Assembly (NCBI GenBank): GCA_947383005.1
Contig: CANDBT010000004.1
Coordinates: forward strand, 88,994-152,993
DNA from: an uncultured bacterium
Lineage (GTDB): Bacteria; Bacillota; Clostridia; Lachnospirales; Lachnospiraceae
Length of the DNA stretch: 64,000 nucleotides
Direction: 5' to 3'
Every line of letters begins with the position of its first letter. Within the stretch, counting starts at the first letter, position 1. The notes under the pieces were generated by a model. It was given only the letters and a program-made list of their open reading frames with translations, did no database searches and was not told the origin of the DNA. Positions 1-29,692 of this stretch are shown here, piece by piece. The position numbers and the translations under genes are program-made.

Positions 1-900
1 ATAAGAAACTTTACCTTTATCCTGCAGCAGGCTGCCCCGCGTATTGTGCTGGCATTGGCCAGCGCAAGTATTTGTATTATCGGCGGGCGGGATATGTCAA
101 CCGGACGGCAGATCGGTTTGTCGGCCATCATCTGTTCCGTTCTGCTTCAGGCGTCGGATTACAGCATCAAACTATATCCGAATATTCCCTGTTTGCCGCT
201 TATCCTGCCATTGCTGCTTTCCATGGCATTTTGTGCCGTGTGTTCCATGATCAATTCCCTGTTGGTCTCAAAGCTGCGGATGATCCCTATGATCGCATCC
301 CTTGGTATGCAGATGGCAATTTACGGAGCGATGTCGGTTTATTATGATCGTTTGACAGGGGGTACGCCCATATCCGGCCTGGACAAGTCTTATACCCGAT
401 TTTGCCAGGGTGAGTTCTATGTGGTGGGAATCCGTGTCCCCTATATTGTCATTTATGCGGTGCTGGCCGCATTGCTCTACTGGTTTATCTGGAACCGCAC
501 CAAGCTGGGGCGAAATATGTTCGCCTGCGGAGGCAATCCGGAGGCGGCGACTGTATCTGGTGTCAGTGTGGTGAAAACTTCCCTGATGGTCTATCTGATA
601 GCAGGCTGTACCTATGCTTTCGCAGGCTTTCTGGAGGCGGGGCGTATTGCTTCCATCACCAACGAGATGGGAAACGGCTATGAGCTGGATGCCATTGCAG
701 GCTGTGTAATCGGCGGAGTTTCTCTTCGGGGCGGTATCGGTACAATTCGGGGAGTTTTGGTAGGAGTAATGCTTTTGCAGGTGATTAACTATGGCCTGGT
801 GTATCTGGGAGTAAATATATACTATACAAACCTGGCCCGTGGTTTGATTATGCTGTTTGCAGTTGCGATTGATATCCAGAAGAATATAAAGAAGAAATAA
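1..900 (+). CDS. mglC: Galactose/methyl-galactoside-type ABC transporter permease, 5' end outside window
   Basis: Inner-membrane permease of a sugar ABC importer of the RbsC/MglC family. The reading frame is open from base 1, so the true start lies upstream and only the last 299 residues are present. Seen: hydrophobic segments throughout, the family signature GGRDMSTGRQIGL near the start, and GNPEAATVSGV and YELDAIAGCVIGGVS in the second half. These blocks and the C-terminus line up closely with what I remember of E. coli MglC, which points to galactose or methyl-galactoside rather than ribose. The ATPase and binding-protein genes would be upstream, outside the window. A short inverted-repeat element follows the stop codon directly. 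Confidence 0.88.
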   Translation: MRNFTFILQQAAPRIVLALASASICIIGGRDMSTGRQIGLSAIICSVLLQASDYSIKLYPNIPCLPLILPLLLSMAFCAVCSMINSLLVSKLRMIPMIASLGMQMAIYGAMSVYYDRLTGGTPISGLDKSYTRFCQGEFYVVGIRVPYIVIYAVLAALLYWFIWNRTKLGRNMFACGGNPEAATVSGVSVVKTSLMVYLIAGCTYAFAGFLEAGRIASITNEMGNGYELDAIAGCVIGGVSLRGGIGTIRGVLVGVMLLQVINYGLVYLGVNIYYTNLARGLIMLFAVAIDIQKNIKKK

Positions 901-910
901 CGGATATGAT

Positions 911-1070
911 TGTAACTGTTCAGTAGGTCTGCACAGAGCCTGCCCCAGCGAAGCGAGGGTATTTACTGCGCTGACCGTAAGATAAACTCGGCCAGAGGGC
1001 AAAAATCCCATCGCCGTAGCGATTTTCAATGGATTTTTGCTCGTAACGGTGAAGGTACTGAACAGTTACA
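911..1070. mobile_element. 160-bp MITE-like element with perfect 15-bp terminal inverted repeats
   Basis: The ends TGTAACTGTTCAGTA (911-925) and TACTGAACAGTTACA (1056-1070) are exact inverted repeats. The element is bracketed by the direct repeat TATGAT (905-910 and 1071-1076), which looks like a target-site duplication. No coding capacity is seen; the inside holds further imperfect hairpins. It fills the gap between mglC and the alcohol dehydrogenase gene. A related element lies at 31435-31583. Confidence 0.65.
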
Positions 1071-1097
1071 TATGATTTTTAAGATGGAGGGGATTAA

Positions 1098-2171
1098 ATG
1101 GCGGAAGGGAAAAAGAAGATGAAGGCAGTTGTTTTAAAGGAGTTCCACAAGCCGTTCGTGGTGGAGGAGCTGCCGGTTCCGGAACCGGGGCCGGGGGAGG
1201 TTCTGGTCAAGGTGATGGCCAGCGGCTTGTGCCTGACGGATGTCCATATTCAGGAGGGGGTTCTGAAAACGGTGAAGGTGCCCTATACTCCCGGCCATGA
1301 GCTGGCCGGCATTGTGGTGAAACTGGGAGAGGGGGTGGAAAACATTGAGATTGGCCAGCATATGTGCGGGTGGATTGATGTGGTTTGCCATACCTGTATG
1401 ATGTGCAGGATGGGAAGGGAGAATCTGTGCCTGAACCGAGTTCGCATCGGATTTGAAAGAAACGGCTCTCATGCAGAGTATGTGGCTATTCCGGCCGAAA
1501 ATGTAATGCCCATTGGAGAAAATATTCCCTGGCCCAGTGCGGCGGTTATCCCGGATGCGGTGGCCTGCATGTACAATGCCATCAAGGTCCAAGGCAAGGT
1601 AAAAGCAGGAGATAAGCTTTTGCTTGCAGGTATGGGAGCTTTGGGAATCCAGGGGGTGCAAATCGCAAAATATCTGGGAGCCGCGGTATATGCTTCGGGA
1701 CGAACCGAGGCCAAGCTTGAACTGGCACGGAAATTTGGCGCTGACGGAACGGTCAATACCCGTGAACAGAACCTCCAGGAGGAGATTAGCCGTCTTACCG
1801 GAGGGGAGCTGTGCGACGTAGCGGTCGATCTGATCGGGACGGACAGCAGCATTGACGAACTGCTGCGCTGTGTTCGCCCGGGCGGGAAGGTCATTGCGGC
1901 AGCGTACGCCGCTGATACTTTTACGGTGAATTTTCAGGAGGTGGTAATCAAGGAAAAAGAAATTATCGGAATCCGTGGAGCCTCCCCCCAGGCGCTGAGA
2001 GAGGCTATCGGGCTGGTGGAAAAAGGAGTGATTGATCCTTATGTGTGCAAAACCTGGAAAATTGATGAGGTAAATGAAGCCATCAACGCCCTCAGAGGTT
2101 TTAAAAACCTGGCAAGAACGGCATTTACTTTTGAGACTGAAAATTCTCATAATTCATCGCCAACTGAATGA
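1098..2171 (+). CDS. Zinc-dependent medium-chain alcohol/polyol dehydrogenase
   Basis: A 357-residue NAD(P)-dependent oxidoreductase of the medium-chain dehydrogenase family. Seen: catalytic zinc candidates Cys45 and His67-Glu68 (GHE), structural zinc cysteines 97, 100, 103 and 111, and the Rossmann loop GMGALG at 168-173. The start is supported by GGAGG seven bases upstream; Met8 is an alternative. Length is normal for the family. The substrate cannot be read from sequence: primary alcohols or sugar alcohols are both possible. Its 3' end overlaps the convergent LysR gene by 47 bp, so the two transcripts are antisense there. LysR may control it, but no operator was identified. Confidence 0.85.
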   Translation: MAEGKKKMKAVVLKEFHKPFVVEELPVPEPGPGEVLVKVMASGLCLTDVHIQEGVLKTVKVPYTPGHELAGIVVKLGEGVENIEIGQHMCGWIDVVCHTCMMCRMGRENLCLNRVRIGFERNGSHAEYVAIPAENVMPIGENIPWPSAAVIPDAVACMYNAIKVQGKVKAGDKLLLAGMGALGIQGVQIAKYLGAAVYASGRTEAKLELARKFGADGTVNTREQNLQEEISRLTGGELCDVAVDLIGTDSSIDELLRCVRPGGKVIAAAYAADTFTVNFQEVVIKEKEIIGIRGASPQALREAIGLVEKGVIDPYVCKTWKIDEVNEAINALRGFKNLARTAFTFETENSHNSSPTE

Positions 2172-3018
2172 AATCATTCATATAGTCGGTCAGATATTTG
2201 TCTTTGTGATACAGCAGGTTAAAAGTCCGGTCCATATTGGCGTCCAAAATTTCCAGAGGCCATAAAAGTCCTTGTTCCACTTCCTCCCGGATGAGCCTCT
2301 GGGAGATAGTGGAAATACCGTGACCGCTGCACACGGCCTTTTTGCTGGCCAGGGTATCTGCGCAGATCCAGGAAACGTGATAGGGAATACCTCGTTCGCT
2401 GAGAAGCTGCTCTAAGCGGGTGGCCGCGTTGTTAGTATTATCTCGTACGATCAGGTTTTCATTGGCAAGATCCTTGAGCATGACGCTCTTGCGCCCGCAC
2501 AGAGGGTGATTGCGACTGCAGATCAGCACCAGGGTATCCCGCATGATCGGAGTACAGATCAGATCGCTGCTGCCGGGCTTGACATCGTTGAGACAGATGT
2601 CAAGGTCGTTATCTAAAAGTTTTTCTTCAATAATGGAGTTCCGGGCCACAACAATCTGATTTTTTACATCGGGATTTTTCTGATCCATCAGTGTGATCAG
2701 GTCGCTGAGAATGGACGCGCCGGTGGAAAGAGAGGCGCCGACCCGCAAAATCCGTTCCTTGGTGGACTGGAGGAGGAAGTCGTCTACCATTTTGTTGTAG
2801 GCCAGAAGCTGTCTGCCGTATTCTAAAAGCTGCTTGCCGCTGGGGGTCAGATACAGCTTTTTGGATAAACGTTCAAAAAGGCGGATGTTGTATTCTTTTT
2901 CAATTTCCGAGATGCATTGACTGACAGAAGCCTGGGTAATGTAAAGTTTGCGGGCAGTGCTGCTGATTTTGCCGCTTTCCGCAACCTCCACAAATATTTT
3001 TAAACTGCGTATAGTCAT
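2125..3018 (-). CDS. LysR-family transcriptional regulator
   Basis: A 297-residue regulator. Seen: N-terminal winged helix-turn-helix at about 1-60 (SLKIFVEVAESGKISSTARK, then ASVSQCISEIEKEYNIRLFER), followed by a substrate-binding domain, the standard LysR layout and length. GAGG lies five bases upstream of the start on the minus strand. It ends inside the 3' end of the dehydrogenase gene and is transcribed towards it. LysR proteins usually act on neighbouring genes; the ligand is unknown. Confidence 0.9.
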   Translation of the reverse strand: MTIRSLKIFVEVAESGKISSTARKLYITQASVSQCISEIEKEYNIRLFERLSKKLYLTPSGKQLLEYGRQLLAYNKMVDDFLLQSTKERILRVGASLSTGASILSDLITLMDQKNPDVKNQIVVARNSIIEEKLLDNDLDICLNDVKPGSSDLICTPIMRDTLVLICSRNHPLCGRKSVMLKDLANENLIVRDNTNNAATRLEQLLSERGIPYHVSWICADTLASKKAVCSGHGISTISQRLIREEVEQGLLWPLEILDANMDRTFNLLYHKDKYLTDYMNDFIQLAMNYENFQSQK

Positions 3019-3493
3019 GAGATGCCTCGCTTTCTGGTCTGTTGACAGAGCTGTCCGTTCTTTGCGCCGTAAATCGGATTACAGGGTTCGCGAAGATATA
3101 GGATATTATAAAAGGAATATAAGTAAAAATCAATGTTTTTGATAATAAAATAATGTTGGGCAAGAAAATACCCGTCTGAACTGTTACATATTTATCCCTT
3201 ACGATACACAGATTGCTTCGCGCTTCATAACCGCGAAAGCCAAAAATCATCGAAAAACAGCCATTTTTCAAACGTATGGCTGCCTTTCGGTGATTTTTGA
3301 CCTTTTGGCCCTGATATCATATAAAACTAATAACATAGCGGATTTTCATAAGAAAAAATTAGTGTAAAATACTTTTTGACTCCAACAATATTATGTGATA
3401 GAGTTGGAGTTGAGAGCAGCAAAGGACGCGCCGAATTCGGGTAAAATGAGGATGGGATTGTAATGGGAAAATGCAGGAAAGGACGGACAAGGG
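3019..3493. other. 475-bp intergenic region with repeat remnants and an upstream hairpin
   Basis: No convincing gene. It holds one end-motif of the GTAAC-family repeat (TGAACTGTTAC, 3177-3187), an imperfect palindromic stretch at about 3200-3310 (ATTTTTGACC ending), and an 8-bp inverted repeat ACTCCAAC (3379-3386) / GTTGGAGT (3403-3410) about 85 bp before the FNT gene, with a possible -35 TTGACT at 3376-3381. The inverted repeat could be an operator or mRNA hairpin for the FNT gene; this is inference. Confidence 0.5.
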
Positions 3494-4078
3494 ATGAAGA
3501 GTAAGTTTCAGATAGGGATAAAGGCTGTTTATGCAGGATTTATGATCGGGTTGGGAGGAATTGTCTATCTGTCAGTAGATAATAAAATTATTGCTTCTCT
3601 TTTGTTTTCTTTTGGATTATTGACCATTGTGACACAGGGATTTTTTCTGTATACAGGGAAAATCGGATTTGTGAAGAAGGTTAATGAGCTTCTTGATATG
3701 GCAATCGTTGCTGCGGGGAATTACATAGGAACTTTTTTTGCGTCAGGGATAGCAAATATGGCGCATCTTAAGATAGACAGCCAGGCATTGACGGCGGCAA
3801 AACTGGAAAATTCCGTGTGGAATGTTTTTTTCTTATCCATGTTCTGCGGAGTGATGATGTATCTGGCGATTGATAATTATCAAAAAACAAAAAATATTGT
3901 CTTTATTATTGCACCGGTGATGATTTTTATTTTATCCGGATTTGAACATTCTATCGCCAATATGTTTTATTTTCACCTGGCAGGGGTATATACGGCGAAA
4001 TCGGCAGCATATCTATTGGTGATGCTGGCAGGAAATGGGATTGGGGCGAAACTTTTCAGCCTGAAAGATATTGTTTAA
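3494..4078 (+). CDS. Short formate/nitrite transporter (FNT) family channel
   Basis: A 194-residue membrane protein of the FocA/NirC family. Seen: multiple hydrophobic helices and the family block GFEHSIANM at 149-157, with the channel histidine at 152 and its Asn partner. At 194 residues it is well below the roughly 260-280 typical of FocA and NirC. FNT proteins form pentameric pores for formate, nitrite or hydrosulfide. Position at the head of a molybdoenzyme locus suggests nitrite or formate as cargo; nitrite fits best if the downstream enzyme is a nitrate reductase. The start follows AAAGGACGGACAAGGG, a modest ribosome site. Confidence 0.82.
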   Translation: MKSKFQIGIKAVYAGFMIGLGGIVYLSVDNKIIASLLFSFGLLTIVTQGFFLYTGKIGFVKKVNELLDMAIVAAGNYIGTFFASGIANMAHLKIDSQALTAAKLENSVWNVFFLSMFCGVMMYLAIDNYQKTKNIVFIIAPVMIFILSGFEHSIANMFYFHLAGVYTAKSAAYLLVMLAGNGIGAKLFSLKDIV

Positions 4079-17375: not shown

Positions 17376-18074
17376 ATGGCTGTTTTGAAAAATTTGGATT
17401 GGAGCCCCTTATATATTTCTTTAAAAACAGGGATTGCTGCGACAATAATCTGTTTTTTTGCCGGCATATTTACAGCAGAGAAAGTGATGAAATTGCCGCC
17501 GGCAAAGAAAGCGCTTGCAGACGGGATTCTGACGATGCCGCTGGTGCTTCCGCCGACGGCGGCAGGATTTTTCCTGCTGCTGTTATTTAGCAGAAGAAGG
17601 CCCCTGGGAATATTTCTGTTCCAGAATTTTAATATCAAGGTGGTGCAGACCTGGCTTGGATGCGTCATTGCGGCGAGTGTCATTGCCTTTCCCCTGATGT
17701 ACAGAAATGCCCGCGCGGCATTTGAGCAGGTAGATGGAAACCTGATCTATGCGGGAAGAACCCTGGGCATGTCGGAATTTCGGATTTTCCGAAAGGTTGT
17801 GCTTCCGGAAGCGGGGCCGGGCATTGTTTCCGGGACTATCCTGACCTTTGCACGGGCACTGGGGGAATACGGCGCGACCTCCATGCTGGCAGGAAATATT
17901 CCGGGAAAGACGGGAACCATATCCCAGAAAATCGCCATGGTGATTCAGGACGGAGATTACCAGACAGCAGGCGTGTGGGTGGCAATTGTCCTTTTTATTG
18001 CTTTTATGGCTGTTTTTTTTATGAATCTGGCCGCAGGGAAAAGAAGGAAAAATATCAGGAAATGGCGGGAGTAA
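17376..18074 (+). CDS. modB: Molybdate ABC transporter permease
   Basis: A 232-residue inner-membrane permease with several hydrophobic segments and the cytoplasmic coupling motif around RTLGMSEFRIFRKVVLPEA, which contacts the ATPase. Ends in a basic tail. Six bases separate it from modA and three from modC, so the three are co-translated. Confidence 0.92.
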   Translation: MAVLKNLDWSPLYISLKTGIAATIICFFAGIFTAEKVMKLPPAKKALADGILTMPLVLPPTAAGFFLLLLFSRRRPLGIFLFQNFNIKVVQTWLGCVIAASVIAFPLMYRNARAAFEQVDGNLIYAGRTLGMSEFRIFRKVVLPEAGPGIVSGTILTFARALGEYGATSMLAGNIPGKTGTISQKIAMVIQDGDYQTAGVWVAIVLFIAFMAVFFMNLAAGKRRKNIRKWRE

Positions 18075-18077
18075 AGG

Positions 18078-19142
18078 ATGGCAGTATATATAGAAATAAA
18101 AAGGAAATGGGAAGGATTTTCTATAGAACTGCAGGTGAAAAGCAGCGCAAAACGCATCGGGATCCTGGGGGCTTCCGGCTGCGGGAAGAGCATGACCTTG
18201 AAGATAATTGCCGGGATCGAGACTCCTGGGGAAGGAAGAATCCAACTGGGTCCGCGTATACTTTTTGATTCAGAAAGCAGGATTAATATAAAGCCCCAAA
18301 AGAGAAATGTCGGCTATCTTTTCCAGAATTATGCACTCTTTCCCGCCATGACCGTGGAAGAGAATATCGCTGCAGGCATAAAGGGAAACAAGGCGGAAAG
18401 GAAAAGGCGGGTTCGGGAAATGACAGAACGATTCCGCCTTGCCGGGCTGGAAAAACGGCTTCCCGGGGAGCTTTCCGGAGGGCAGCAGCAGAGGACTGCG
18501 CTTGCAAGGATTATGGCCTATGAGCCGGAGATGATTCTTCTGGACGAGCCTTACACGGCTCTTGACGGGTTCCTCCGCGACAGGCTGGAGCAGGAGCTTC
18601 TTACGATGCTGGACGATTATCAGGGAACTGCTATTTTGGTTTCCCATAACCGGGATGAAATCTACCGCTTCAGTGAAGATTTGCTTATTATGGAAGACGG
18701 AAAAGCCGCTGTTTTTGGAAAAAGCAAAGATATCTTTGAAAATCCCCGGAAAATTGCCGCAGCCAGGCTGACTGGCTGTAAGAATATCTCAAGGGTGGAA
18801 ATTCTGAACCCGCATTCAATGCGGGCATTGGATTTTGGCATTACGCTGCATACGGTAAGGGAAATTCCCGGGGATACGTCGGCCGTCGGTTTCCGGGCCC
18901 ATGAATTTGTCCCGATATGGGGGAAGCGGCAGAAGAATTGTATCCGGGTGCAAGTGGAAAGCAGGGCAGAGCTTCCTTTTGAGTGGAAGTATTATCTTAA
19001 ACCAGAAACAGAAGAAGGGCGCAGGGGAGGGGAATCCCTTTGCTGGTTCATACAAAAAGATAAGTGGCAAGAGCTTTCCGAAAGAGGGCTGCCGGATTAT
19101 CTGCAGTTTTCTGAGGGGAAGCTGTTGTTTTTAAAAGAATAG
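18078..19142 (+). CDS. modC: Molybdate ABC transporter ATP-binding protein
   Basis: A 354-residue ATPase. Seen: Walker A GASGCGKS at 31-38, Q-loop LFQNYALFP, signature LSGGQQQR, Walker B LLDEPYTALD and a C-terminal extension from about residue 235. That extension is where ModC proteins carry a molybdate-sensing MOP-like domain. It closes the molybdenum block; no clear terminator follows immediately. Confidence 0.92.
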   Translation: MAVYIEIKRKWEGFSIELQVKSSAKRIGILGASGCGKSMTLKIIAGIETPGEGRIQLGPRILFDSESRINIKPQKRNVGYLFQNYALFPAMTVEENIAAGIKGNKAERKRRVREMTERFRLAGLEKRLPGELSGGQQQRTALARIMAYEPEMILLDEPYTALDGFLRDRLEQELLTMLDDYQGTAILVSHNRDEIYRFSEDLLIMEDGKAAVFGKSKDIFENPRKIAAARLTGCKNISRVEILNPHSMRALDFGITLHTVREIPGDTSAVGFRAHEFVPIWGKRQKNCIRVQVESRAELPFEWKYYLKPETEEGRRGGESLCWFIQKDKWQELSERGLPDYLQFSEGKLLFLKE

Positions 19143-19501
19143 GCATATGGTGTTGCTACAGGTTTTTGACAAGCTGTCTGTCAATACTTTTTGGACGGTG
19201 CCGGTGAGGTCTTTTTCAATTCGCTAAATCGCCAGGGGGTATCCGCAGATTTTGGATGATTAGGGGAGCATTTGTTTTCGATTAAAGATGCTGTGGTGGC
19301 TATAGATGGGACGGCATTTCTTCTTTTGTCAGCATATTGACGCCTCCACAAGTTCAAATTTAAATGTTACACATAAATTGTAATCACAAGAAACATCGGG
19401 CAATGCCCGATGTTTAAAACTGGACGGAAGCGGTTTTATAAGTAGGCTTGAACCTATATGATTATGTTAAGATTCTATTGGGATATCGTATTGGCGTAAT
19501 T

Positions 19502-19705
19502 CTAGTACTACCTTGCGGAAATTTCAGTGAATTCAGCACTCGCTGTTTCCGCCCTCTGCACGCCTGCAAAGCTAGACGTAGGCACCGCTACGTTGCTAAT
19601 GTTCAGCAAGGACCGGAACGGAGTGTAGAACGTCGCTTTGCAGACGCACAGATGACGAAAATATCAAGCACTGTATTCACCATTATTTTCGCAATGCAGT
19701 ACTAG
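19502..19705. mobile_element. MITE copy 1, IS5-like target (CTAG)
   Basis: CTAG (19502-19505) and CTAG (19702-19705) flank a 196-bp element whose ends, TACTACCTTGCG and the inverse of TACTGCATTGCG, form imperfect inverted repeats over about 35 bp. No coding capacity. CTAG fits the YTAR target of the IS5 group. Confidence 0.6.
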
Positions 19706-19944
19706 TACAGCGTTGCATTAATTCTCGAGTAATCAGCACTCGCTGTTTGTGCCATTGCCGCGTTGGTCTACGCTCCGCTTCGGTCCGTGCTAAACGTGTG
19801 CCACTGGCACACAGCACCGTCAGTTAACGATGCCACCGCAGAGTCTGCTCCAGCGAAGCGAGGGTATCGCCTTCTTCTTCCGCCTTGCACTGACGCAAAA
19901 CATCAAGCACGGATTACTTCAAGATTAATGCAACGATGTACTAG
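19702..19944. mobile_element. MITE copy 2, sharing a CTAG with copy 1
   Basis: A 235-bp related element between CTAG at 19702-19705 and CTAG at 19941-19944, with ends TACAGCGTTGCATTAAT and the inverse of TACATCGTTGCATTAAT. It abuts copy 1, the two sharing one CTAG. Part of its inside repeats copy 1 (CAGCACTCGCTGTTT). Confidence 0.6.
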
Positions 19945-20290
19945 ACACAGATATAGTGATTTATGATATCGAAATATCTTCAGAAATCATGGAATATATC
20001 CTTCCAGAGTAACTTTATCGTTTTTCAGACCAACAACATTGTTAATTTCCCTGGATAGATAGGTTAGCATGATTCCTTTGGAGACGGGGCTCCGCGCCCC
20101 AGAGGGTGTACGTGAAAATAAAATTGTTGAAGATTTTAAATTTTGCCCCATTTTCGGCTCAAAAAAGGCCATATTCGCCGATCTGACAGGGACCTTATTT
20201 GCAGCAACTTCTTCAAAATCGCTATATTTTCCGCACCACAAAAAATAGCCGGAAATTTATGCAATACCAACAAAAATATAAGAAAAAATC

Positions 20291-20437
20291 ATGAGAAAGC
20301 TAGCCTTACCTGATGAAATTTTACTAAGTATCCAGCAGCCCGCCCGCTACATCGGCGGCGAGGACATGTGCGTCAAGGATCCGAAAAACGTGGCCATCCG
20401 TTTTGCCATGTATTTTCCGGACGTGTCCGTTGGGTGA
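20291..20437 (+). pseudogene. N-terminal fragment of a B12-binding radical SAM protein
   Basis: A 48-codon open frame beginning MRKLALPDEILLSIQQPARY and ending RFAMYFPDVSVG before a TGA. This is the conserved start of the roughly 600-residue radical SAM family (TIGR03960-type) that normally continues after FPDVYE. Everything after the first 46 or so residues is missing, so it is a truncated relic, not a functional gene. Confidence 0.7.
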
Positions 20438-20729
20438 GTGTTGATACGTTTGGTGTACTATATATTGTAGTGATATGTTTACATAAAATGAATATATTAT
20501 ATGTTTTGGAATAGGACGAACAAATTTGAAGTGTTGAAAAAATAAATTTGTTGAAAAATTGCGGAGTTTTAAAACAGTAAAAATCAGATCAAAATGAGGA
20601 TCCATATTAAGCAAATAGGAAAAGAGGCGGCGTAAGAAAGTTATATATGGTAATTGCATAAAAATTTAAAAATATGAATAAAGATTAGTTGGTACACAAT
20701 ATACTTTGATACTTTTTAGTTCCCTTAAA

Positions 20730-20768
20730 AGCAGGAGGCCATGACAAGCATGGCTCCCAGCTTTTTTC
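20730..20768 (+). terminator. Intrinsic terminator
   Basis: GGAGGCCATG pairs with CATGGCTCC (one bulge), followed by CAGCTTTTTTCGG. It may be left from a lost gene downstream of the radical SAM fragment. Confidence 0.6.
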
Positions 20769-20843
20769 GGTTATTAAGGACCATTTTTAAATAGGATATT
20801 TTCCTTTGAATCATGAAAGTTCTGTATATAGGCTCGTTTAACA

Positions 20844-20872
20844 TTGAATTGCCTGGGAAAACTTGTTATACT
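20844..20872 (+). promoter_or_regulatory. Sigma-70-type promoter of the AAA-ATPase/nuclease gene
   Basis: TTGAAT (20844-20849), 17-bp spacer, TATACT (20867-20872). The predicted start near 20879 leaves a short leader before the ATG at 20903, which rules out the earlier in-frame ATG at 20813. Confidence 0.6.
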
Positions 20873-20902
20873 ATGGATAGAAGAAAGGGGACATCAACAA
20901 TT

Positions 20903-22585
20903 ATGGCAAGAATCATTGGCATTGGACATCAGGATTTTACCGAACTGATTGCAAGTGGATGTTTTTATGTGGACAAGACAGAGTTCATCCGGGAGTGGTG
21001 GGAAAACCAGGATGTGGTTACTTTGATTGCCCGCCCCCGCCGTTTTGGAAAAACGCTGAATATGAGTATGCTGGAGCGCTTTTTCTCTGTAGAATATAAA
21101 GGGCAAGGGAAGATATTTGAAGGCCTCTCTATATGGAAGGATAAAACATTTCAGGAGCTTCAAGGGACTTATCCGGTGATTGCGCTTAGTTTTGCTGATG
21201 TGAAGGAAGTAACATTCCCTACAGCTAGAGAAAAAATCTGTCAGATTATAAAAATGGTTTTTGGAAAGTATCGGTTTTTGCTGGACAGTGATGTTCTGGG
21301 AGAAGATGAAAAGGAAGACTTTCGCAAGATTTCTGCCGTTCCGGAAAACAGTACGATTACTCTTTCCTTAAAGATGCTGTCCCTTTATCTTTCCCGTTAC
21401 TATGGAAAGAAGGTGATCCTTCTTCTGGATGAGTATGATACACCTATGCAGGAAGCTTATGTGAACGGATACTGGGATGAAATGGCTGCCTTTATCCGAA
21501 GCCTTTTCAATTCAACTTTTAAAACAAACCCATATCTTTTTCGGGCTGTCATGACTGGAATTACAAGGATCAGCCGAGAATCTGTCTTTTCTGATCTGAA
21601 TAATCTAACGGTAATAACGACAACATCCGAGATTTTTGAGGACTCCTTTGGATTTACACAGCAGGAGGTATGGAACGCCTTGGAGGAATATGATTTGTCT
21701 GGACAAAAAGAATCGGTGAAGGCCTGGTATGACGGTTTTGTTTTTGGTAAGAAAAGGGATATTTATAATCCCTGGTCTATCATCAATTATCTTAAAACGA
21801 AAAAACTATCCTGCTATTGGGCCAATACCAGCAGCAACAGCTTAATGGGAAAGCTGATCCGGGAGGGGAGTCCGGCTGTAAAAGAGACCATGGAGGAGCT
21901 TTTGAAAGGACGGAAACTCTGTACAACCATTGATGAGCAGATTGTTTTCAGCCAGTTGGAGTACAGCGAGAGCGCTGTGTGGAGTCTGTTTCTGGCAAGT
22001 GGATATTTGAAAGCAGACAGTCATCGGTTCGATGAGGAATTTGGAATAGAGGAATATGAACTGAGTCTGACCAATAAGGAAGTCCGTATAACATTTGAGA
22101 AGATGATACGAGATTGGTTTGGGAAGTCAGTAAAGGAATACAATGGATTTATCAAAGCATTATTACAAGGCAATACGAAGGAAATGAATGCTTATATGAA
22201 CCGGATTACCCTGAGTACTTTCAGCTATTTTGATACAGGAAACCGTCCGTCAGGATCAGAGCCGGAACGTTTCTACCACGGATTTGTATTAGGACTTATG
22301 GTGGAACTGGCTGATCGGTATGTGATTACATCTAATCGGGAAAGTGGGTTTGGAAGATATGATGTGATGTTAAAGCCACGGAAAAAAGAGGACCATGGGA
22401 TTATTCTGGAATTCAAGGTCTATGACCCGGATGACGAAGAGAGTCTGGAGGATACCGTGAAAGCAGCTTTAAAGCAGATTGAAGATAAGAATTATAAATC
22501 AGCCTTAATGGCAGAAGGGATTAGTGAAGATAGGATTAGAAAATATGGTTTTGGATTTGAAGGCAAGAGTGTTCTAATTGGATAA
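20903..22585 (+). CDS. AAA-ATPase-like / PD-(D/E)XK nuclease family protein
   Basis: A 560-residue protein of the family pairing an AAA-ATPase-like domain with a C-terminal PD-(D/E)XK nuclease-like domain, greatly expanded in Lachnospiraceae and Bacteroidetes. Seen: N-terminal FYVDKTEFI, Walker A-like RPRRFGKT at 44-51, Walker B ILLLDEYDTPMQ, and C-terminal GRYDVML...ILEFKVYD giving the Asp and Glu-x-Lys of the nuclease fold. The start at 20903 lies just after a promoter. The biological role of the family is not settled; mobile-element or defence roles have been suggested. Degraded relatives lie at 41468 and 41962. Confidence 0.82.
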   Translation: MARIIGIGHQDFTELIASGCFYVDKTEFIREWWENQDVVTLIARPRRFGKTLNMSMLERFFSVEYKGQGKIFEGLSIWKDKTFQELQGTYPVIALSFADVKEVTFPTAREKICQIIKMVFGKYRFLLDSDVLGEDEKEDFRKISAVPENSTITLSLKMLSLYLSRYYGKKVILLLDEYDTPMQEAYVNGYWDEMAAFIRSLFNSTFKTNPYLFRAVMTGITRISRESVFSDLNNLTVITTTSEIFEDSFGFTQQEVWNALEEYDLSGQKESVKAWYDGFVFGKKRDIYNPWSIINYLKTKKLSCYWANTSSNSLMGKLIREGSPAVKETMEELLKGRKLCTTIDEQIVFSQLEYSESAVWSLFLASGYLKADSHRFDEEFGIEEYELSLTNKEVRITFEKMIRDWFGKSVKEYNGFIKALLQGNTKEMNAYMNRITLSTFSYFDTGNRPSGSEPERFYHGFVLGLMVELADRYVITSNRESGFGRYDVMLKPRKKEDHGIILEFKVYDPDDEESLEDTVKAALKQIEDKNYKSALMAEGISEDRIRKYGFGFEGKSVLIG

Positions 22586-22646
22586 ATACAGTGAAAATTA
22601 ACACTGCGAAGATTTATAATTTTTAGCAAGAAAGGGAGATAGAAAA

Positions 22647-22999
22647 ATGATGGAAGATAAGAACATTACATTTAATATGAATGGTGGACAGCTTAATTAT
22701 GCGAGAGATAATGGAACAATTTATGCCACACAGAATAATGGAGACAATACCAATAGCTTGGATATTATTTTAAAAGAAATTATTGAAAATTTATCAGGTA
22801 TAGAAAAAAAGAGGCAGATAAGATTAGAGATGTTGTAGATATGGCGAAGGAGGAATTGGTGAAACCAGAGCCCAAAGTGAGCAGATTAAGAAATTGTGTT
22901 ACTTTAATAGCTCCAATGCTTACGATTGCAAATGGGATACCGGCTTTGGCAAATAGTTTACAGAAATTAGTGGACTATATTAAACCATTTATCCGTTAG
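22647..22999 (+). CDS. Small motif protein, partner of the STAND ATPase; frame broken at a slippery heptamer
   Basis: The zero frame gives 63 residues (stop at 22838). A -1 shift at A_AAA_AAG (22805-22811) continues into an open frame to 22999, giving 117 residues that end 10 bp before the next start codon. Residues 7-31 carry the shared motif (NGGQLNYARDNGTIYATQNN). The shifted part ends in a hydrophobic/amphipathic stretch (CVTLIAPMLTIANGIPALAN) that could touch membranes. Either programmed frameshifting or a mutation in the A-run explains the break. I do not recognise a named family. GGGAG lies about ten bases before the start. Candidate effector or signalling partner, by inference. Confidence 0.6.
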
Positions 23000-23009
23000 G
23001 AGATACATT

Positions 23010-25430
23010 ATGAAAGAGGATACCACAGACAGTTTAATTCTAAATATTCTTCCCGGAGGTCAAGTTAATTATGCAACAGATAATGCGACTATAAATGCAT
23101 ATCAAAATATTACAATAGATGCCAGCACTTTTCAAAAGAAATTATCATCAGCGCCAATAAAAAATTCATGTTTTGTGGGAAGAAATGATGAGGAAGATGA
23201 AATTATTGAAATTCTATCAAAGAATCACAGAGTATTAATTAACGGAGTAGGGGGGATAGGAAAAACAGCGTTAGCGAAGAAGATATATTTTGATTACGAA
23301 AGTAAATACAAGCATATAGCATGGATTGAATTTAAGAGTAGCTGGACAGAATCTCTTATCTCTTCATTGTTTACTGCAAATTTCAACTTTTCAGAGAAAA
23401 ATACTGAAGATGAAAAGTATGAAAAAATCTTTCAGTTTTTATCCAACTTGAAGGGAGATATATTAATAATAATTGATAATTTTAATTCAATTGGACCAGG
23501 AGATTTATTTGAGATTTTTAAATTGTCAAATGCGGATATTCTTATAACTTCCAGATGCCAACCTGTGGGAATACCTGTCTATAGACTAGATCCGCCAAAT
23601 GAAGAAGAATGCAAAAGGATATTTAAAGAAAATTATTTCCTTAAGGACTCATTGACGTTTGAAGAAGATCTGATAATTGAGGATATTATAAACAGATCTC
23701 AAAGATATACATTAGCGATTGAGTTAATTGCTAAGTCTATTTGTTATATAAATAGAAGCATTAGCGAATTTTGGGATGATCTAAAAGCACAGAATTATCA
23801 GCTAAAAGAGCTGAATTTACAAGCCAACTCTGATTGGAATAATCGATTTATAAATGAGGATATTTCTTCACAGATTAGTAAAGTATATGAGTTAGCGGTC
23901 TTAACAGATGAAGAAAGGACTGTGGCTCAGTTGCTGAGTATTTTACCCCCTTTTTCAAAAATATTATTATCAGATTTGAAGTGCTGGGTACCATTTTCAA
24001 GTACAAATACTATAGTGGTACTATCAAATAAAGGATGGGTAACTTGCGAAAATCGAGAAGTTTATATGCATGAAATTATAAGTAGTTGCATTAGTGAATA
24101 TAATTCAATTACGTTTCATCAATGTGAACTATTGATGGCAGATTTAGAAAGAAAATTACAGCTAGGACCACAAATTGATACAGTAAATTGTGTTAAATAT
24201 GCAGATTATATCTATAATATTATTGGAATCAAAAAAGAAGATTATATGTTCTGTCGTCATTTATCGGTAAAAGAAGCCGCTTTGGTATTTAAGGAAGTTG
24301 GTAAATATGATTTATCAAAGGGACTTTTAGATATTATTATTTCATGTTATCAAAATGATAGTGATGAAAACAAATTAATTTTGGCTGAACTTTATAATAA
24401 TTATTCCAAGGTCTATAGTATGGAATCCGATATTCCTATGGCATTAAAAATGGCTCAGCATGCGGAATCCCTTATAGACTCCATTAATAATGATTATTCT
24501 CCAAATTATTATTTTCAGAAAATGATTATTAAAAAAACGGTTGGTATGCATTTTGCCCATCTGAAAAATAATGAGGAAGCATTAGAAAAAATGCGGGAAG
24601 CAATAAAAATCTCAAATAGCGTAAATGAATCACAAAAGCATCAAATTGCTAATCTTTATTCTGATTACTCGTTACTGCTATATGATACTGGAAATATATG
24701 TGATAGTATAAATACATATCAAAAAGTAATATAGCTATATGATGAATGTGGAATCACTAAATATAGTCCTTGGAGAAATACTACTTATACAAACTATGCT
24801 GACTCGTTAATTTTAAATAGCCAATATGAAGATGCTATTTATTATGAATTTCAGGCATTAATTGGTAAGTATAATTGTTATAACGAGGACAACTTGGCAA
24901 TAGCGAATGCTTTACTTGGAATGGGACATATTTACCGGACCGAAAAGCGATTATGGGACATCGCTGCAATGTTTTATTCAAAAGCAGCAAACATTTATAA
25001 AATGGTAAGCTCTGTATGTGATGGATATTGTGATTCAATTGCCTGCTTTGCAATGGTTACAGACAATCATGAGTTACCATTAATGATTTACGAAATTATA
25101 ATGAGTAATACTACTAAAGTATATCTAATATCTACTATGGCTAATGTTATGTATTCTCTTAAAGAATTCTATCCAGATAAAATGATTTTGGTAGGGGAAA
25201 AAGTAATAGATATGTTAAAAAATTTTGAAAAAGGACATGTTGCAGAACAATTGATTTATGCTCTTATGGGTGAGACATATTATAAACTAGATAAAAAAAT
25301 GAAAGCGAAAGAGTGCCTATTGAAATCTATTAATAAGAGAATGATTCCAACCTCCTATTATTATAAAGAAAGTATAAATATTTTAAGCAAAATACCTTCT
25401 ATGATAGATGAAACGGCTCTAGGAGACTGA
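23010..25430 (+). pseudogene. NLR-like STAND NTPase (NB-ARC + TPR) with internal amber stop
   Basis: One 806-codon frame interrupted by TAG at 24732-24734, with the same frame open on both sides. Seen: N-terminal shared motif at residues 9-33 (LPGGQVNYATDNATINAYQN); NB-ARC ATPase with Walker A GVGGIGKT at 79-86, Walker B DILIIIDNF and ILITSR; a winged-helix-like region near 340-370; and C-terminal TPR-like helices that run across the stop. STAND proteins are signal-activated switches, used in bacterial antiphage defence. As written, translation yields 574 residues lacking the last 230 of the sensor region. Single base change from a Glu, Lys or Gln codon would restore it. AGGAGA precedes the start. 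Confidence 0.72.
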
Positions 25431-25499
25431 TTAATTCAGGCTAAGATAATTATATCCTGAAAGACTTTTGATGTATAAAATATGAATTAGAGGGAAGTT

Positions 25500-25970
25500 A
25501 TGAGAAAAGACAGCGAATTATTCTTAAGAAGAGTTTTGAAATATAGAAGAGAAATCAATAAAGATAGTTTTATTATTAGTTATCGCTTCTTTGAGGAAAT
25601 ACCAAGTATTGAAACAGCGATATTCGATATTTTAAAAGATTTGATCGCAAATGATTGCCTTACAAGTAAAAGTGGTGTATTGGATTGAGAAGGGGACATT
25701 TCTATTAATTTAACTTTAGATGGAATTACATACTTTGATAAAGGAATGCAGAGTAATTCTGCTATTGTATTTAATATCTCTGGCGGTCAAGTAAATATTG
25801 CAAGGGATAGTAGTAAAATTGAGGCTGTTATTAGTAATTGTCCTAAACCAGAATTCGTTAAGAAAGGAGAATCCGATAATAATCTGAAAACAGATGAAAT
25901 ATTACTAGATAAGGTAAAAATGACAAGGAATAAGAAGGTCCATCTTCCTATAATCGATTTACGGCGCTAA
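25500..25970 (+). pseudogene. Third motif protein (winged-helix-like + shared motif) with internal opal stop
   Basis: A 156-codon frame split by TGA at 25686-25688. The first 62 residues look helical, and the sequence after the stop (ISINLTLDGITYF) completes what looks like a winged-helix wing. The shared motif follows (FNISGGQVNIARDSSKIEAV), aligned position for position with the small protein at 22647. The last codons lie inside a tandem repeat at 25951, so the native C-terminus is probably replaced. GAGGGAAG precedes the start. Possible readthrough cannot be excluded, but a nonsense mutation (for instance from GGA) is simpler. Confidence 0.6.
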
Positions 25971-26115
25971 GGACGCGCCTTTTATCAAAATTTGCTTTGC
26001 AAATTATGATAAGTTATATTACAGGAACCGCTACGCGAACCCTGTAATCGGATTTACGGCGCAAATGACGCGCCTTTTATCGGAAATCGCTTCGCAATTT
26101 CCGATAAGTTATATT
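25951..26115. repeat. Two tandem copies of a roughly 70-bp palindrome-bearing repeat
   Basis: Copy 1 (25951-26020) and copy 2 (26045-26115) share TTTACGGCGC, GACGCGCCTTTTATC and GATAAGTTATATT, and each contains a hairpin closed by TTATC/GATAA. They differ in the hairpin arms, which changed in a paired way, suggesting the folded form is kept. The STAND-module gene 3 runs into copy 1. Confidence 0.6.
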
Positions 26116-26150
26116 GTTACATTCTTTCAAATTTTCCAGCAACCAGAATA

Positions 26151-26204
26151 ATGCAGTAAGAAAAAGCAATCATCAAGTTTGACGATTGCTTTTTCTTACT
26201 GCAT
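26151..26204. terminator. Bidirectional terminator-like hairpin straddling the treR stop codon
   Basis: Perfect 21-bp stem (26151-26171 with 26184-26204) with a 12-nt loop. The stem itself contains A5/T5 runs. The last codons of treR lie in the right arm and its stop in the loop. Confidence 0.6.
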
Positions 26205-26913
26205 TGTCATAGAAGCAGAAATAATCCGGACGATGCCGGGATTGGGTATATTCAAACATTACGCCATCGCTGTTATAAGTCTGGCTGCTGATTACCGCCA
26301 TGCAATTATAGTCCTGAATATCTTTCAGCAGGTACTTTTCATCGATTTGCGTTATTTTTTCGACAGTCATGACCCGTTTGCTGTTTACGATGGTCATATG
26401 CAATGTCTGCTCCAAATACTGATAAGCAGAGTTTTCCGCAATTTCTTTTGTCAGGCCAGGAATTGCTTCTTTTAAGAAATAATTGTGGTTAAGAATCAGC
26501 GGCATAGCATCCAGATAGTGCAGGCGCTGGATATAATAAATATCCGTTCCCACAGGAAACCCCGTGTATAGAGACTGTTTTTCGTTAATGGCAAATTCGG
26601 TAAACAAAAGGACTTTTGTACTGGCATGATGGCCGTTCCGTGCTGCAGATTCCCGAAACGTCTCTATCTCTCCGATGGTAAAGGCCGTCTGTGCGATGGG
26701 CTGGTAGATATTGCGTACTCCCTTACCTTGCATGGTCTGTACATAACCATCCGTTACCAGGCGGCTGACTGCCCGGCGAAGGGTATTGCGTGAGCAGTTA
26801 TACGTTTGGACCAATGTGTTTTCTGAAGGTAAAAGTTCCTGATAGGCAAAAACATTGGTTTCAATTTTTTGTTTTAAATCTTTATAAATGGTTTCGTATA
26901 TTGATTTCGGCAT
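26173..26913 (-). CDS. treR: Trehalose operon repressor, GntR family
   Basis: A 246-residue regulator. Seen: N-terminal GntR winged helix at about 1-70 (LLPSENTLVQTYNCSRNTLR, GYVQTMQGKGV) and a C-terminal UTRA ligand-binding domain at about 90-235. Divergent from the trehalose genes and flanked by two palindromes of TreR-like operator form. In Bacillus, TreR releases DNA on binding trehalose-6-phosphate. AGAGGTG lies seven bases before the start on the minus strand. The downstream hairpin overlaps its 3' end. Confidence 0.88.
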   Translation of the reverse strand: MPKSIYETIYKDLKQKIETNVFAYQELLPSENTLVQTYNCSRNTLRRAVSRLVTDGYVQTMQGKGVRNIYQPIAQTAFTIGEIETFRESAARNGHHASTKVLLFTEFAINEKQSLYTGFPVGTDIYYIQRLHYLDAMPLILNHNYFLKEAIPGLTKEIAENSAYQYLEQTLHMTIVNSKRVMTVEKITQIDEKYLLKDIQDYNCMAVISSQTYNSDGVMFEYTQSRHRPDYFCFYDNAVRKSNRQT

Positions 26914-26969
26914 AGTTATTCACCTCTGTTATCATTATTATAGCAAGGAAAGGATAAAAAAGTCAACAT

Positions 26970-27021
26970 CTTGTTTAAACAAGTGTGTTATAACATAATG
27001 CATCAAACATGTTTAAACAAG
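26970..27021. promoter_or_regulatory. Trehalose promoter with two TreR-type operators
   Basis: Operator 1 is the perfect palindrome CTTGTTTAAACAAG (26970-26983) and overlaps the -35 TTGTTT (26971-26976); the -10 is CATAAT (26994-26999), spacer 17 bp. Operator 2, CATGTTTAAACAAG (27008-27021), lies at about the start point. Centres are 38 bp apart. This layout predicts repression. Confidence 0.65.
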
Positions 27022-27047
27022 TTAAAACAGATGGAGGGATTGAAAGC

Positions 27048-27977
27048 ATGGGAAAGTATGCGGAAGACGCAAAACAGTTGTTACATCTGGTAGGCGGAAA
27101 AGAGAACATCGCGGCAGTTTCACATTGTATGACAAGAATGCGGTTTGCTCTGGCGGAACCGGCAATCTTTGGTGTAAATTTAAAAAGAGGGTTCCCCTTT
27201 GTCTGCGGAATGATCGGCTCCGGACTGGCAGCGATTGTTTGTGTGGCCACAGGGACAACAGCTAACGCCATCGGTGTAGGCGGCGTTCCCGGAATTTTAT
27301 CTATTCAGCCTCCGTTTATGGGCTCCTTTGGAATTTGTATGATAATTGCCTTTGCGGTTTCGTTCTTGTTGACAATGATTGTGGGTAAGAGGCGCTTGGC
27401 AGCGGTCCAGGTCGATGAGACAGTGGAACCGGCAGCAGGAACCATGGTTTCTGCTTCTGTGATGGGCGACGGAAAAGAGGCGAAAATAGCAAAAGGGCAG
27501 CCAGAGGAAAAGAAAGAGACGGAAGGAAGGCTGACAGCCTTTTTATCGGGAGAAGCAATCCCTTTGGCGGAAGTGGAAGATGGCGTTTTTTCGGCAGGAG
27601 TTTTGGGTGACGGTATGGCCATCATTCCGGAAACCGAAATACTGTACTCGCCGGCGGACGCCAGGGTTGCGGCATTAATGCCAGATTCACGTCATGCCTG
27701 TGGGTTAAAACTGGATAATGGTATGGAAGTCCTGTTACATATCGGCATCGATACCGTGGATATGAAAGGGGACGGATTTGAATATTTGGTAGAAGAAGGG
27801 CAGGAAGTCAGTGCCGGAACACCGTTGATCAAATTTGACCGGGCAAAAATTCAGGCGGCAGGCCATCGGGATGTGACCGTATGTGTGATCAGCAATGAGG
27901 GGAATGGCAGGGAAATTCAGTTTCATACAGGGGTAGTGGTAAAAGAAAAAGAAACAACTGTGGTAACATTCAGGTGA
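27048..27977 (+). pseudogene. Trehalose PTS EIIBCA with most of EIIC deleted in frame
   Basis: A 309-residue frame with a complete EIIB start (GKYAEDAKQLLHLVGGKENI, phosphocysteine in VSHCMTRMRFAL), then an abrupt join at MRFALAEPAIFGVN to the last part of EIIC (GFPFVCGMIGSGLA), then a complete EIIA with the phosphohistidine in LLHIGIDTV. Intact trehalose EIIBCA proteins are about 650 residues, so roughly 330 residues, nearly all the membrane channel, are missing. Transport should be lost, though EIIA and EIIB might still be phosphorylated. Start at 27048 follows GGAGGG; an earlier ATG falls inside operator 2. Confidence 0.82.
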
Positions 27978-28000
27978 GGAAGAATCAGGAGGACAGCAAG

Positions 28001-29692
28001 ATGGCAAATTTTAACAGCAAAGTAGTATACCAAATATATCCGAAATCCTTTCGGGATAGCAATGGGGATGGCTTGGGAGATATCCCCGGGGTGATAGAAA
28101 AATTGGATTACCTCCAGGGATTAGGTGTAGATTATCTGTGGCTGACCCCGTTTTTTCCATCGCCACAGAATGATAATGGGTACGATGTGATGGATTACTG
28201 TGCTATGGATCCAAAATTTGGGACAATGGCAGATTTGGAGGAATTGGTTAGGAAGAGCGAAGAGCGTGATATGGGGATTATGCTGGATATGGTATTTAAC
28301 CATACGTCTACTTACCATGAGTGGTTTCAGAAAGCGCTGGCTGGTGAGGAAAAATACCAAAAGTATTATATTTTCAAAGAAGGCACACCAGATCATGCTC
28401 CTACAAACTGGCAGTCAAAGTTCGGCGGTTCCGCATGGGAATATTTGCCCGGCCTGAAAAAGTGGTACCTCCATTTATATGATGTGACCCAGGCGGATTT
28501 AAACTGGGATAACCCGGAAGTTCGGGAAGAACTGAAGGAAATCCTCCGGTTTTGGAAGGAAAAAGGGATTAGGGCCTTTCGGTTTGACGTCATCAACCTG
28601 GTTTCCAAACCGGAAGTGATGGAAGACGATTTTCAAGGAGACGGCCGTAGGTTTTACAGCGACGGCCCCCATATCCATGAGTATCTGAAGGAATTGGTGA
28701 AAGATGCAAAGATTGAGGATTTCATAACCGTAGGGGAGATGTCTTCCACATCCCTTGAGCATTGTATCCGGTATTCCGATCCAAGGGAAAAAGAACTCTC
28801 CATGTGTTTTAATTTCCATCATCTGAAGGTGGATTATAGAGACGGGGACAAATGGGCCCTTATGGATACGGATTATAAAAAGCTGAAGGAACTATTTGTG
28901 GAGTGGCAGATGGGGATGCAGAAAGGAGGCGGGTGGAATGCCCTGTTTTGGTGCAACCATGATCAGCCCCGTATTGTGAGCAGGATAGGAGATGAACACA
29001 CTTACTGGAAGGAGTCGGCGAAAATGCTGGCTGGTATAATCCATCTCATGCGGGGGACTCCGTACATCTATCAGGGGGAAGAGATTGGCATGCTGAACGC
29101 CCATTATGCTTCTATCAAGCAGTACCGGGATGTGGAAAGCTTAAATTACTATGAGATTTTGCTGGAAAAAGGAGCGACGGAGGAAGAGGCACTTGAAACT
29201 TTGTCAGCCAGATCCAGGGATAACAGCAGGACTCCTATGCAGTGGACAGGGGAAACCTATGGCGGATTTTCCGAGACAGAACCATGGCTTCCCATGTCTG
29301 ATGAATTTCGAGGAGAGATTACGGTAGAAGCCCAGGAAAAAGACGAGAATTCTATTCTCGCTTTTTATAAGAAGTTAATCGCTATGAGAAAACGATATCC
29401 GGTGATCGCTAAAGGAGGAATTTCATTTTTAGAAACCGGAACAGATATGGTACTGGCATACCAAAGAGTGCTGGGGAAACAGGAGATTCTGGTGTTTGGC
29501 AATCTGGATAGTAAAAACCAAACCATCAAAGTAGCCAGGAAAGGGAAAGAATATGAAGTATTGCTGGAAAATTATGATAGGAAGGGCGATATGTTCTGTG
29601 AGCATACCTTATCGTCTGAAGGCCGGGAGGCATTAGAAGAATCATATACCATGAAGCCATATGAGATTATGGTTTTGGGAAACGTAAATTAA
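28001..29692 (+). CDS. treA: Trehalose-6-phosphate hydrolase
   Basis: A 563-residue GH13 enzyme that splits trehalose-6-phosphate to glucose and glucose-6-phosphate in the cytoplasm. Seen: SNGDGLGDIPG near the N-terminus, LDMVFNHTS, nucleophile region FRFDVINLVSKP, acid/base TVGEMSS and the WCNHDQPR block. The start at 28001 is chosen over an earlier in-frame ATG because CAGGAGG is eight bases upstream. It appears intact although the adjacent transporter gene is deleted, so substrate supply would need another PTS. Confidence 0.9.
   Translation: MANFNSKVVYQIYPKSFRDSNGDGLGDIPGVIEKLDYLQGLGVDYLWLTPFFPSPQNDNGYDVMDYCAMDPKFGTMADLEELVRKSEERDMGIMLDMVFNHTSTYHEWFQKALAGEEKYQKYYIFKEGTPDHAPTNWQSKFGGSAWEYLPGLKKWYLHLYDVTQADLNWDNPEVREELKEILRFWKEKGIRAFRFDVINLVSKPEVMEDDFQGDGRRFYSDGPHIHEYLKELVKDAKIEDFITVGEMSSTSLEHCIRYSDPREKELSMCFNFHHLKVDYRDGDKWALMDTDYKKLKELFVEWQMGMQKGGGWNALFWCNHDQPRIVSRIGDEHTYWKESAKMLAGIIHLMRGTPYIYQGEEIGMLNAHYASIKQYRDVESLNYYEILLEKGATEEEALETLSARSRDNSRTPMQWTGETYGGFSETEPWLPMSDEFRGEITVEAQEKDENSILAFYKKLIAMRKRYPVIAKGGISFLETGTDMVLAYQRVLGKQEILVFGNLDSKNQTIKVARKGKEYEVLLENYDRKGDMFCEHTLSSEGREALEESYTMKPYEIMVLGNVN

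Follow-up and report, generated by a model that had tools for sequence, protein, structure and literature searches.

The 64,000-nucleotide stretch of DNA analyzed here (the window), from an uncultured bacterium of the Lachnospiraceae, carries an interrupted and probably decaying version of what we take to be a motif-coupled NLR cassette. In such a cassette, a short motif shared by a STAND-type sensor and a small helical partner encoded beside it would act as a homotypic plug linking the two, a mechanism that we favor with moderate confidence in the form proposed below.

Gene organization of the locus

The locus comprises three genes, all on the plus strand: gene 1, coding for a small motif-tail protein, an NB-ARC/TPR gene (the NLR, a STAND protein), and gene 3. 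A first-pass annotation of this DNA had claimed one copy of the motif in each, and this was confirmed: gene 1 carries FNMNGGQLNYARDNGTIYATQNNG (22671..22742), the NLR LNILPGGQVNYATDNATINAYQN (23034..23111), and gene 3 FNISGGQVNIARDSSKIEAVISN (25770..25838). The strict GGQhNxAxD DNA pattern GGNGGNCARNTNAAYNNNGCNNNNGAY matches the 4,989,798-base genome only three times, always within this 3.1-kb locus; the chance that three randomly placed hits fall within 3,125 bases of such a genome is ~1.6e-6, a value computed post hoc and ignoring base composition. Over 397 genomes, including this one, the pattern recovers six matches in four genomes, all inside motif proteins, and the backwards-read control pattern recovers three. 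On the 5' side, ~9-19 kb of the window is occupied by a run of molybdenum-cofactor and modABC genes, and on the 3' side, from 26.2 kb, there is a run coding for a GntR-like regulator, a sugar PTS, and a glucosidase (ORFs assigned by reading in both cases). Directly upstream of gene 1 lies an AAA-ATPase-like/PDDEXK_9 gene (Pfam; 20813-22585), and the same gene is found upstream of the intact cassette of Dorea sp. 5-2.

The 5' frame of gene 1 in the ORF list (22647..22838, plus strand) encodes the motif and the start of a helical tail, corresponding to positions 1-58 of the motif-tail module (3-55 in another search). It had earlier been taken for a single 63-residue protein with a hydrophobic C-terminus; instead, the remainder of the four-helix tail continues in a second frame on the same strand (22787..22999, open from 22787 to the ORF end), which scores 87.3 bits against module positions 49-117 and is stop-free inside the match. 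The end of gene 1 is separated by 10 bases from the start of the NLR, whose first part (23010..24734, plus strand) contains the motif (residues 9-34), an NB-ARC domain with a match starting at residue 62 (Pfam 2.2e-8), and the beginning of a TPR region (TPR_12 4.1e-11), i.e., the combination of a P-loop domain with a C-terminal repeat sensor that characterizes STAND/NLR-like proteins. This part ends at an in-frame TAG (24732-24734), beyond which the frame (24735..25430, plus strand) encodes the rest of the TPR region, running on to 25427 (TPR_12 6.4e-4, below the Pfam cut-off). The ORF of gene 3 (25500..25688, plus strand) encodes a part that is winged-helix-like as read from the sequence, with no hit in Pfam, and ends in an in-frame TGA (25686-25688) that separates it from the motif; past the TGA (25689..25970, plus strand) are the motif and a truncated end devoid of a membrane region. 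A repeat unit with inverted-repeat stretches, present in two copies (25958-25986 and 26053-26081), abuts this truncated 3' end, with two matches in the window vs none in 100 shuffles.

Interruptions and intact relatives

All three genes of the window are interrupted, respectively by a frame change, a TAG, and a TGA, and intact relatives exist for each of them. Dorea sp. 5-2 (L086) encodes, after the same upstream gene, a small protein of 117 aa in a single continuous frame and an 807-aa NLR (Pfam NB-ARC 4.6e-8, TPR_12 1.7e-14), both uninterrupted, and the window pieces are 82-89% identical to these proteins (89% for the NLR part past the TAG). Against Dorea sp. 5-2, the first and second parts of gene 1 (51 and 52 codons) have dN/dS values of 0.192 and 0.148, and the NLR has values of 0.187 before and 0.128 after the TAG, with 0.112 for a neighbor-gene control; judged by this ratio, purifying selection has acted on the NLR frame beyond the TAG. 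These values suggest that the interruptions are either recent or tolerated, two situations that dN/dS, averaging as it does over both lineages, cannot separate. We infer that the interruptions inactivate the window copy. It is improbable that the genes are not broken at all, with slippage and stop readthrough yielding full proteins or the interruptions being assembly errors. An A_AAA_AAG heptamer, the classic bacterial slippage sequence, can be read in frame where the tail frame of gene 1 takes over (22805..22811, plus strand); this, the purifying selection after the TAG, and the draft nature of the assembly (136 contigs) would agree with unbroken genes, but the gene 1 relative in Dorea sp. 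5-2 is one continuous 117-aa frame, and decay accounts better for three interruptions of three kinds and for the missing 3' end of gene 3.

Pairing of the motif proteins with STAND genes

Seven loci of the GGQ class (the window, L086, L064/L066, L056, L076, L078, and L104/G300) have a small motif protein, or a larger protein with the motif in its C-terminus, encoded beside a motif-bearing STAND gene; in L064/L066, two stretches of one contig, the adjacency is deduced from the stretch lengths. The partner in L056 (the same locus as L034 and L105) is a DUF4062-motif-tail protein, and the sensors are of two types, NB-ARC-TPR and, in L078, NACHT-pentapeptide. Two more NB-ARC loci, recovered by whole-protein search, have other shared motifs, namely L106 (the L002 locus), with a 151-aa partner, and L020, with a TIR partner. 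This makes for three motif classes, each shared within its locus: GGQhNxAxD (seven loci), NxGxVxxGD (L106), and GxYhGGDQ (L020). In the last of these (588-3603, genome G242), the TIR protein and the NB-ARC/TPR protein share GGNYVGGDQ/DGDYIGGDQ. The expectation of the first-pass annotation that partners in one genome would have the motif in common is borne out also for other motif classes, in nine loci that were chosen for a visible motif.

Alignments of the first 50 NLR residues with the locus's own partner score 57-90 (z 6.0-12.0), with none of 500 shuffles as high in any of the nine STAND loci; these were picked for a visible shared motif and therefore do not provide an unbiased rate. Of 20,000 random pairings, 45 attained the sum of the own-partner scores over the nine chosen loci; inside the GGQ class, an NLR does not consistently match its own partner best. 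In comparisons across NLR subgroups, the motif is conserved as an island, with 41% identity vs 11% in the adjoining linker, 28.5% in the NB-ARC domain, and 20.5% in the rest.

Relatives of the NB-ARC type were found by whole-protein search in 33 of 299 genomes, including that of the window. ORFs were read at 29 of these loci (L002 to L030), and six of their proteins were typed with Pfam: a fused TIR domain occupies the N-terminal slot of two (L010, L016), a fused kinase that of two more (L021, L023), and a short motif that of the remaining two (L002, L020), for both of which the motif also occurs in the neighbor protein. At the other read loci, no shared motif was visible by eye. Since the same position is taken by an effector domain in some proteins and by a short motif in others, the motif may stand in for an effector held in trans; this alternation is the best argument for such a role.

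The motif-tail unit

The unit common to these relatives consists of the motif, which is predicted to be disordered, followed by a confidently modeled four-helix tail. A pattern scan of genome contigs returned 32 stretches, seven of which were dropped as unrelated (six cell-wall-hydrolase-like, one kinase-like); the other 25 rows represent motif proteins from 24 contigs and comprise 16 of the PDC-M14B type, six rows in five NLR loci, and three others (L063, L072, L082). The PDC-M14B-type rows comprise nine scanned with PADLOC, five identical or nearly identical to scanned ones, and two partial ones placed by eye. In alignment A5, 15 of 15 proteins match all six PDC-M14B models of PADLOC, and the unit also forms the end of DUF4062 and winged-helix-like proteins. 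Among the window proteins submitted to PADLOC, the tail piece alone matched M14B (model positions 217-266 of 267, E 0.0038). The first-pass interpretation of the locus, as an NLR coupled to effectors by a possibly amyloid-forming motif, is supported in part; it had overlooked both the interrupted state and the C-terminus shared with PDC-M14B and DUF4062 proteins. Discarded from the module searches were five of 11 genomes in the first (L043 to L047, unrelated proteins) and two of 12 in a later one (G058, G368; P-loop proteins of ~600 aa with a tail-like match).

In an alignment of 26 modules (two of them partial), the motif is the best-conserved part: Q15 and A27 are invariant, and G14, N17, D21, and P76 are present in at least 90%; modules of different types are 48.6% identical over the motif and 21.6% over the tail. 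AlphaFold2, run on the module alignment, models residues 1-34 of the small protein with pLDDT <50, followed by four helices (34-51, 54-71, 78-97, and 99-116); from residue 41 on, the pLDDT averaged over ten residues is 86-94. A separate model of PDC-M14B starts with a helical N-domain and continues through the motif region (155-179, pLDDT <50) into four further helices. Both models place the motif outside folded regions, and in the NLR it precedes the NB-ARC match in the sequence; a position inside a globular domain was the finding that, according to the first-pass annotation, would have spoken against its proposal. Only three of the 26 tails reach a mean hydropathy of 1.6 over 19 residues, most having no such segment.

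Gene 3 and its relatives

An intact relative of gene 3 (L063) is a 355-aa protein with a winged-helix-like part, the motif, and then five hydrophobic 19-residue segments; the gene 3 pieces on both sides of the TGA match its residues 1-110 at 43% identity. The membrane region after the motif is present in the gene 3 relatives and absent in the window copy. The L063 gene adjoins one for a motif-tail protein, with no NLR within that stretch; in G300, a relative with motif and membrane region, though with an ill-defined start, is encoded downstream of the NLR. At E 0.01, there was no gene 3 relative in the searched stretches of L064, L066, L056, L105, L076, L078, L106, L020, and L086 (the last partly masked). 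The co-occurrence of all three genes, assumed in the first-pass annotation, holds in the seven GGQ-class loci for genes 1 and 2; gene 3 or a relative is beside the NLR in just two of the seven, the window and G300, one of the seven (Dorea, L086) being partly masked. Gene 3 does not belong to the core of the cassette, since just one GGQ-class locus out of the six besides the window has a relative. Three of six genomes were dropped from the gene 3 search: G125 (match within a housekeeping gene resembling a phosphoesterase), G385 (match antisense to a longer ORF), and G098.

One protein of G350 (L109, 601-1992) combines the winged-helix-like part with a different motif, NNFYGNVTGVQIQQG, and an additional C-terminal region; the adjoining AbiTii protein (Pfam 1.6e-43) ends in NNFYGTITDIDVEQG. 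The two share this Asn/Gly-rich motif and represent the same principle as the GGQ-class pairs. L082 (10-3626) codes for a winged-helix-like-motif-tail protein that is a gene 3 relative by phmmer (E 3.1e-8); its neighbor, which has the motif, a single hydrophobic segment, and a long stretch with no Pfam hit, is possibly a membrane sensor in place of an NLR, and a DUF4062-like gene (by reading) is located upstream.

Proposed mechanism and alternatives

Intact cassettes combine a TPR-bearing NB-ARC sensor having the ~25-residue motif at its N-terminus with a gene just upstream, whose product (a small protein or the C-terminus of a larger one) presents the same motif followed by a four-helix bundle. 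By analogy to the BASS and fungal systems, as portrayed in the portions of the reports drawn on here (PMC7889193, PMC12881547), we propose that the TPR region might sense a phage cue, upon which the NB-ARC domains would oligomerize. The clustered NLR motifs would then template the same β-rich, probably amyloid-like fold on the motif of the neighbor, gathering the helical bundles into an active effector that would most likely act in defense by membrane damage or abortive infection. Gene 3, with the same motif and, in its intact relative, five hydrophobic segments, might serve as a dispensable client or anchor at the membrane. The chain is weakest at the effector step, since it is not evident that the tail spans the membrane and no solved structure is a reliable relative of its fold.

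The main rival, which we consider unlikely, is a constitutive, non-amyloid homotypic adaptor (e.g., a short β-rich oligomer stem) holding sensor and partner in a standing complex, in the manner of the effector-associated domains (EADs) of Aravind and colleagues and with no need of a templated fiber. The same coupling logic has been described for EADs in the part of that work considered here (PMC8195603). Further, in PDC-M14B the motif lies between two folded domains of one chain, with no separate partner to recruit. However, at only ~25 residues and modeled as disordered, the motif is unlike the folded EAD domains, and its richness in Gly, Asn, and Gln is a feature of known signaling motifs. 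Less probable is that the small protein is an inhibitor silencing the NLR via the motif, the true effector being elsewhere, e.g., the gene 3 membrane protein where present. The five hydrophobic segments of the L063 gene 3 relative, which most tails lack, and the position of the small gene, first in order and ending 10 bases before the NLR in the window, are compatible with this; but the motif-tail partner is present in seven of seven GGQ-class loci, while a gene 3 relative is beside the NLR in two of them (one of the seven being partly masked). Least probable of all is common descent alone, i.e., a motif-tail gene duplicated and fused beside STAND genes with the motif now devoid of a coupling role: it would suit the spread of the unit outside NLR loci (16 of 25 motif rows being of the PDC-M14B type), but NLRs of two STAND classes (NB-ARC, NACHT) have retained the motif and no tail, the NLR motif is more conserved than the adjoining linker, and two further motif classes are paired alike.

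Beyond the motif-coupled cassette itself, we offer a broader reading tentatively, at somewhat less than even likelihood: a cassette of the disordered, β-prone 25-residue motif and the four-helix bundle might be a common executioner of separate defense systems in an amyloid-based plug-and-socket network of Bacillota. It would be fused in PDC-M14B (partly in restriction-modification loci), DUF4062, and winged-helix-like proteins, and shared through the motif with NB-ARC-TPR, NACHT-pentapeptide, or membrane-anchored sensors. In the same reading, parallel motif classes would serve TIR and AbiTii partners, and the order of motif and bundle would be the reverse of that in Bell/HeLo effectors.

Relationship to known systems

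BASS amyloid-signaling systems, in the sections of the reports used here, share a short motif between the N-terminus of an NLR and the adjacent gene product, the partner being a helical-bundle (Bell) protein (PMC7889193, PMC8086366, PMC12261475); TIR partners have also been reported (PMC7889193). The present cassettes resemble these accounts in the N-terminal NLR motif, the same motif in the adjacent gene product (in the window and eight chosen loci), the helical-bundle partner, and, in L020, the TIR partner. However, the motif (within residues 1-34) here precedes the helices (34-116), also in fusions, whereas the Bell domain as described precedes its motif. By analogy, the cassette would work like BASS and yet not be a standard Bell-BASS pair, a distinction drawn from the order of motif and bundle.

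The order of motif and bundle in fungal HET-S/HELLP-type proteins is likewise the reverse of that in the present bacterial pairs, which differ from them in this respect and are likened to them by layout, not by sequence. The fungal HET-S/NWD2 and HELLP/PNT1 clusters, to the extent covered in the source excerpted here, have an NLR and a helical-bundle partner side by side with a short shared motif, and fungal NLRs come in all-in-one forms with a fused effector and in motif-coupled forms (PMC12881547). Both aspects have counterparts here, in the adjacent NLR and bundle genes sharing a motif and in the NLRs with a fused effector (cf. the TIR/kinase slot). In conflict systems with EADs, according to the excerpted account, a non-catalytic terminal unit is proposed to recruit effectors to the core by homotypic contact (PMC8195603). 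The present motif is comparable as a terminal non-catalytic unit with proposed homotypic recruitment; in contrast, EADs are described there as domains, mostly α-helical, whereas this is a ~25-residue motif that is disordered in models. The pieces of genes 1 and 3 gave no EAD hit in the profile libraries searched, which may not hold all of EAD1-12.

PDC-M14, a PADLOC candidate system, comprises a zinc-ribbon protein (M14A) and M14B, whose C-terminal ~110 residues are the motif and four-helix unit. The window differs in having neither the N-terminal domain of M14B nor a recognizable M14A neighbor, and the NLR loci have a sensor gene beside the unit. No same-strand M14A-like segment (at least 80 aa, two CxxC) was found at 18000-29000 of the window; one opposite-strand segment is unlike M14A by reading. 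A link of NLR pairs, DUF4062 proteins, and PDC-M14B via one motif-tail unit was not found in the literature searched. If correct, our proposal would extend NLR motif signaling to Lachnospiraceae and other Clostridia and supply a mechanistic hypothesis for the uncharacterized PDC-M14. It would also point to a very small (117 aa) candidate effector, with motif and tail separable for testing, and to three motif classes in one bacterial family, making signaling specificity directly testable.

Genomic contexts of the motif-tail unit

A DNA search of plasmids gave no match. One protein search of plasmids was likewise negative, another yielded a 48-residue match of 49% identity in 19 enterococcal records (E 0.4 to 0.7), and a third three records with NB-ARC-level matches; one Exiguobacterium match at E 0.01 was also found by plasmid protein search. 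Phage searches by protein gave no match, and none was confirmed in viral contigs by protein or alignment searches; the pattern scan of viral sequences returned four stretches, namely two PDC-M14B loci and two hydrolases. In L038, a PDC-M14B gene with a PDC-M14A neighbor lies between specificity-subunit-like and HsdR-like genes (by reading). The PDC-M14B protein on a contig of a Bacteroidales MAG is nearly identical to that of Clostridium oryzae (L068, L081), reflecting either a recent transfer or a binning error.
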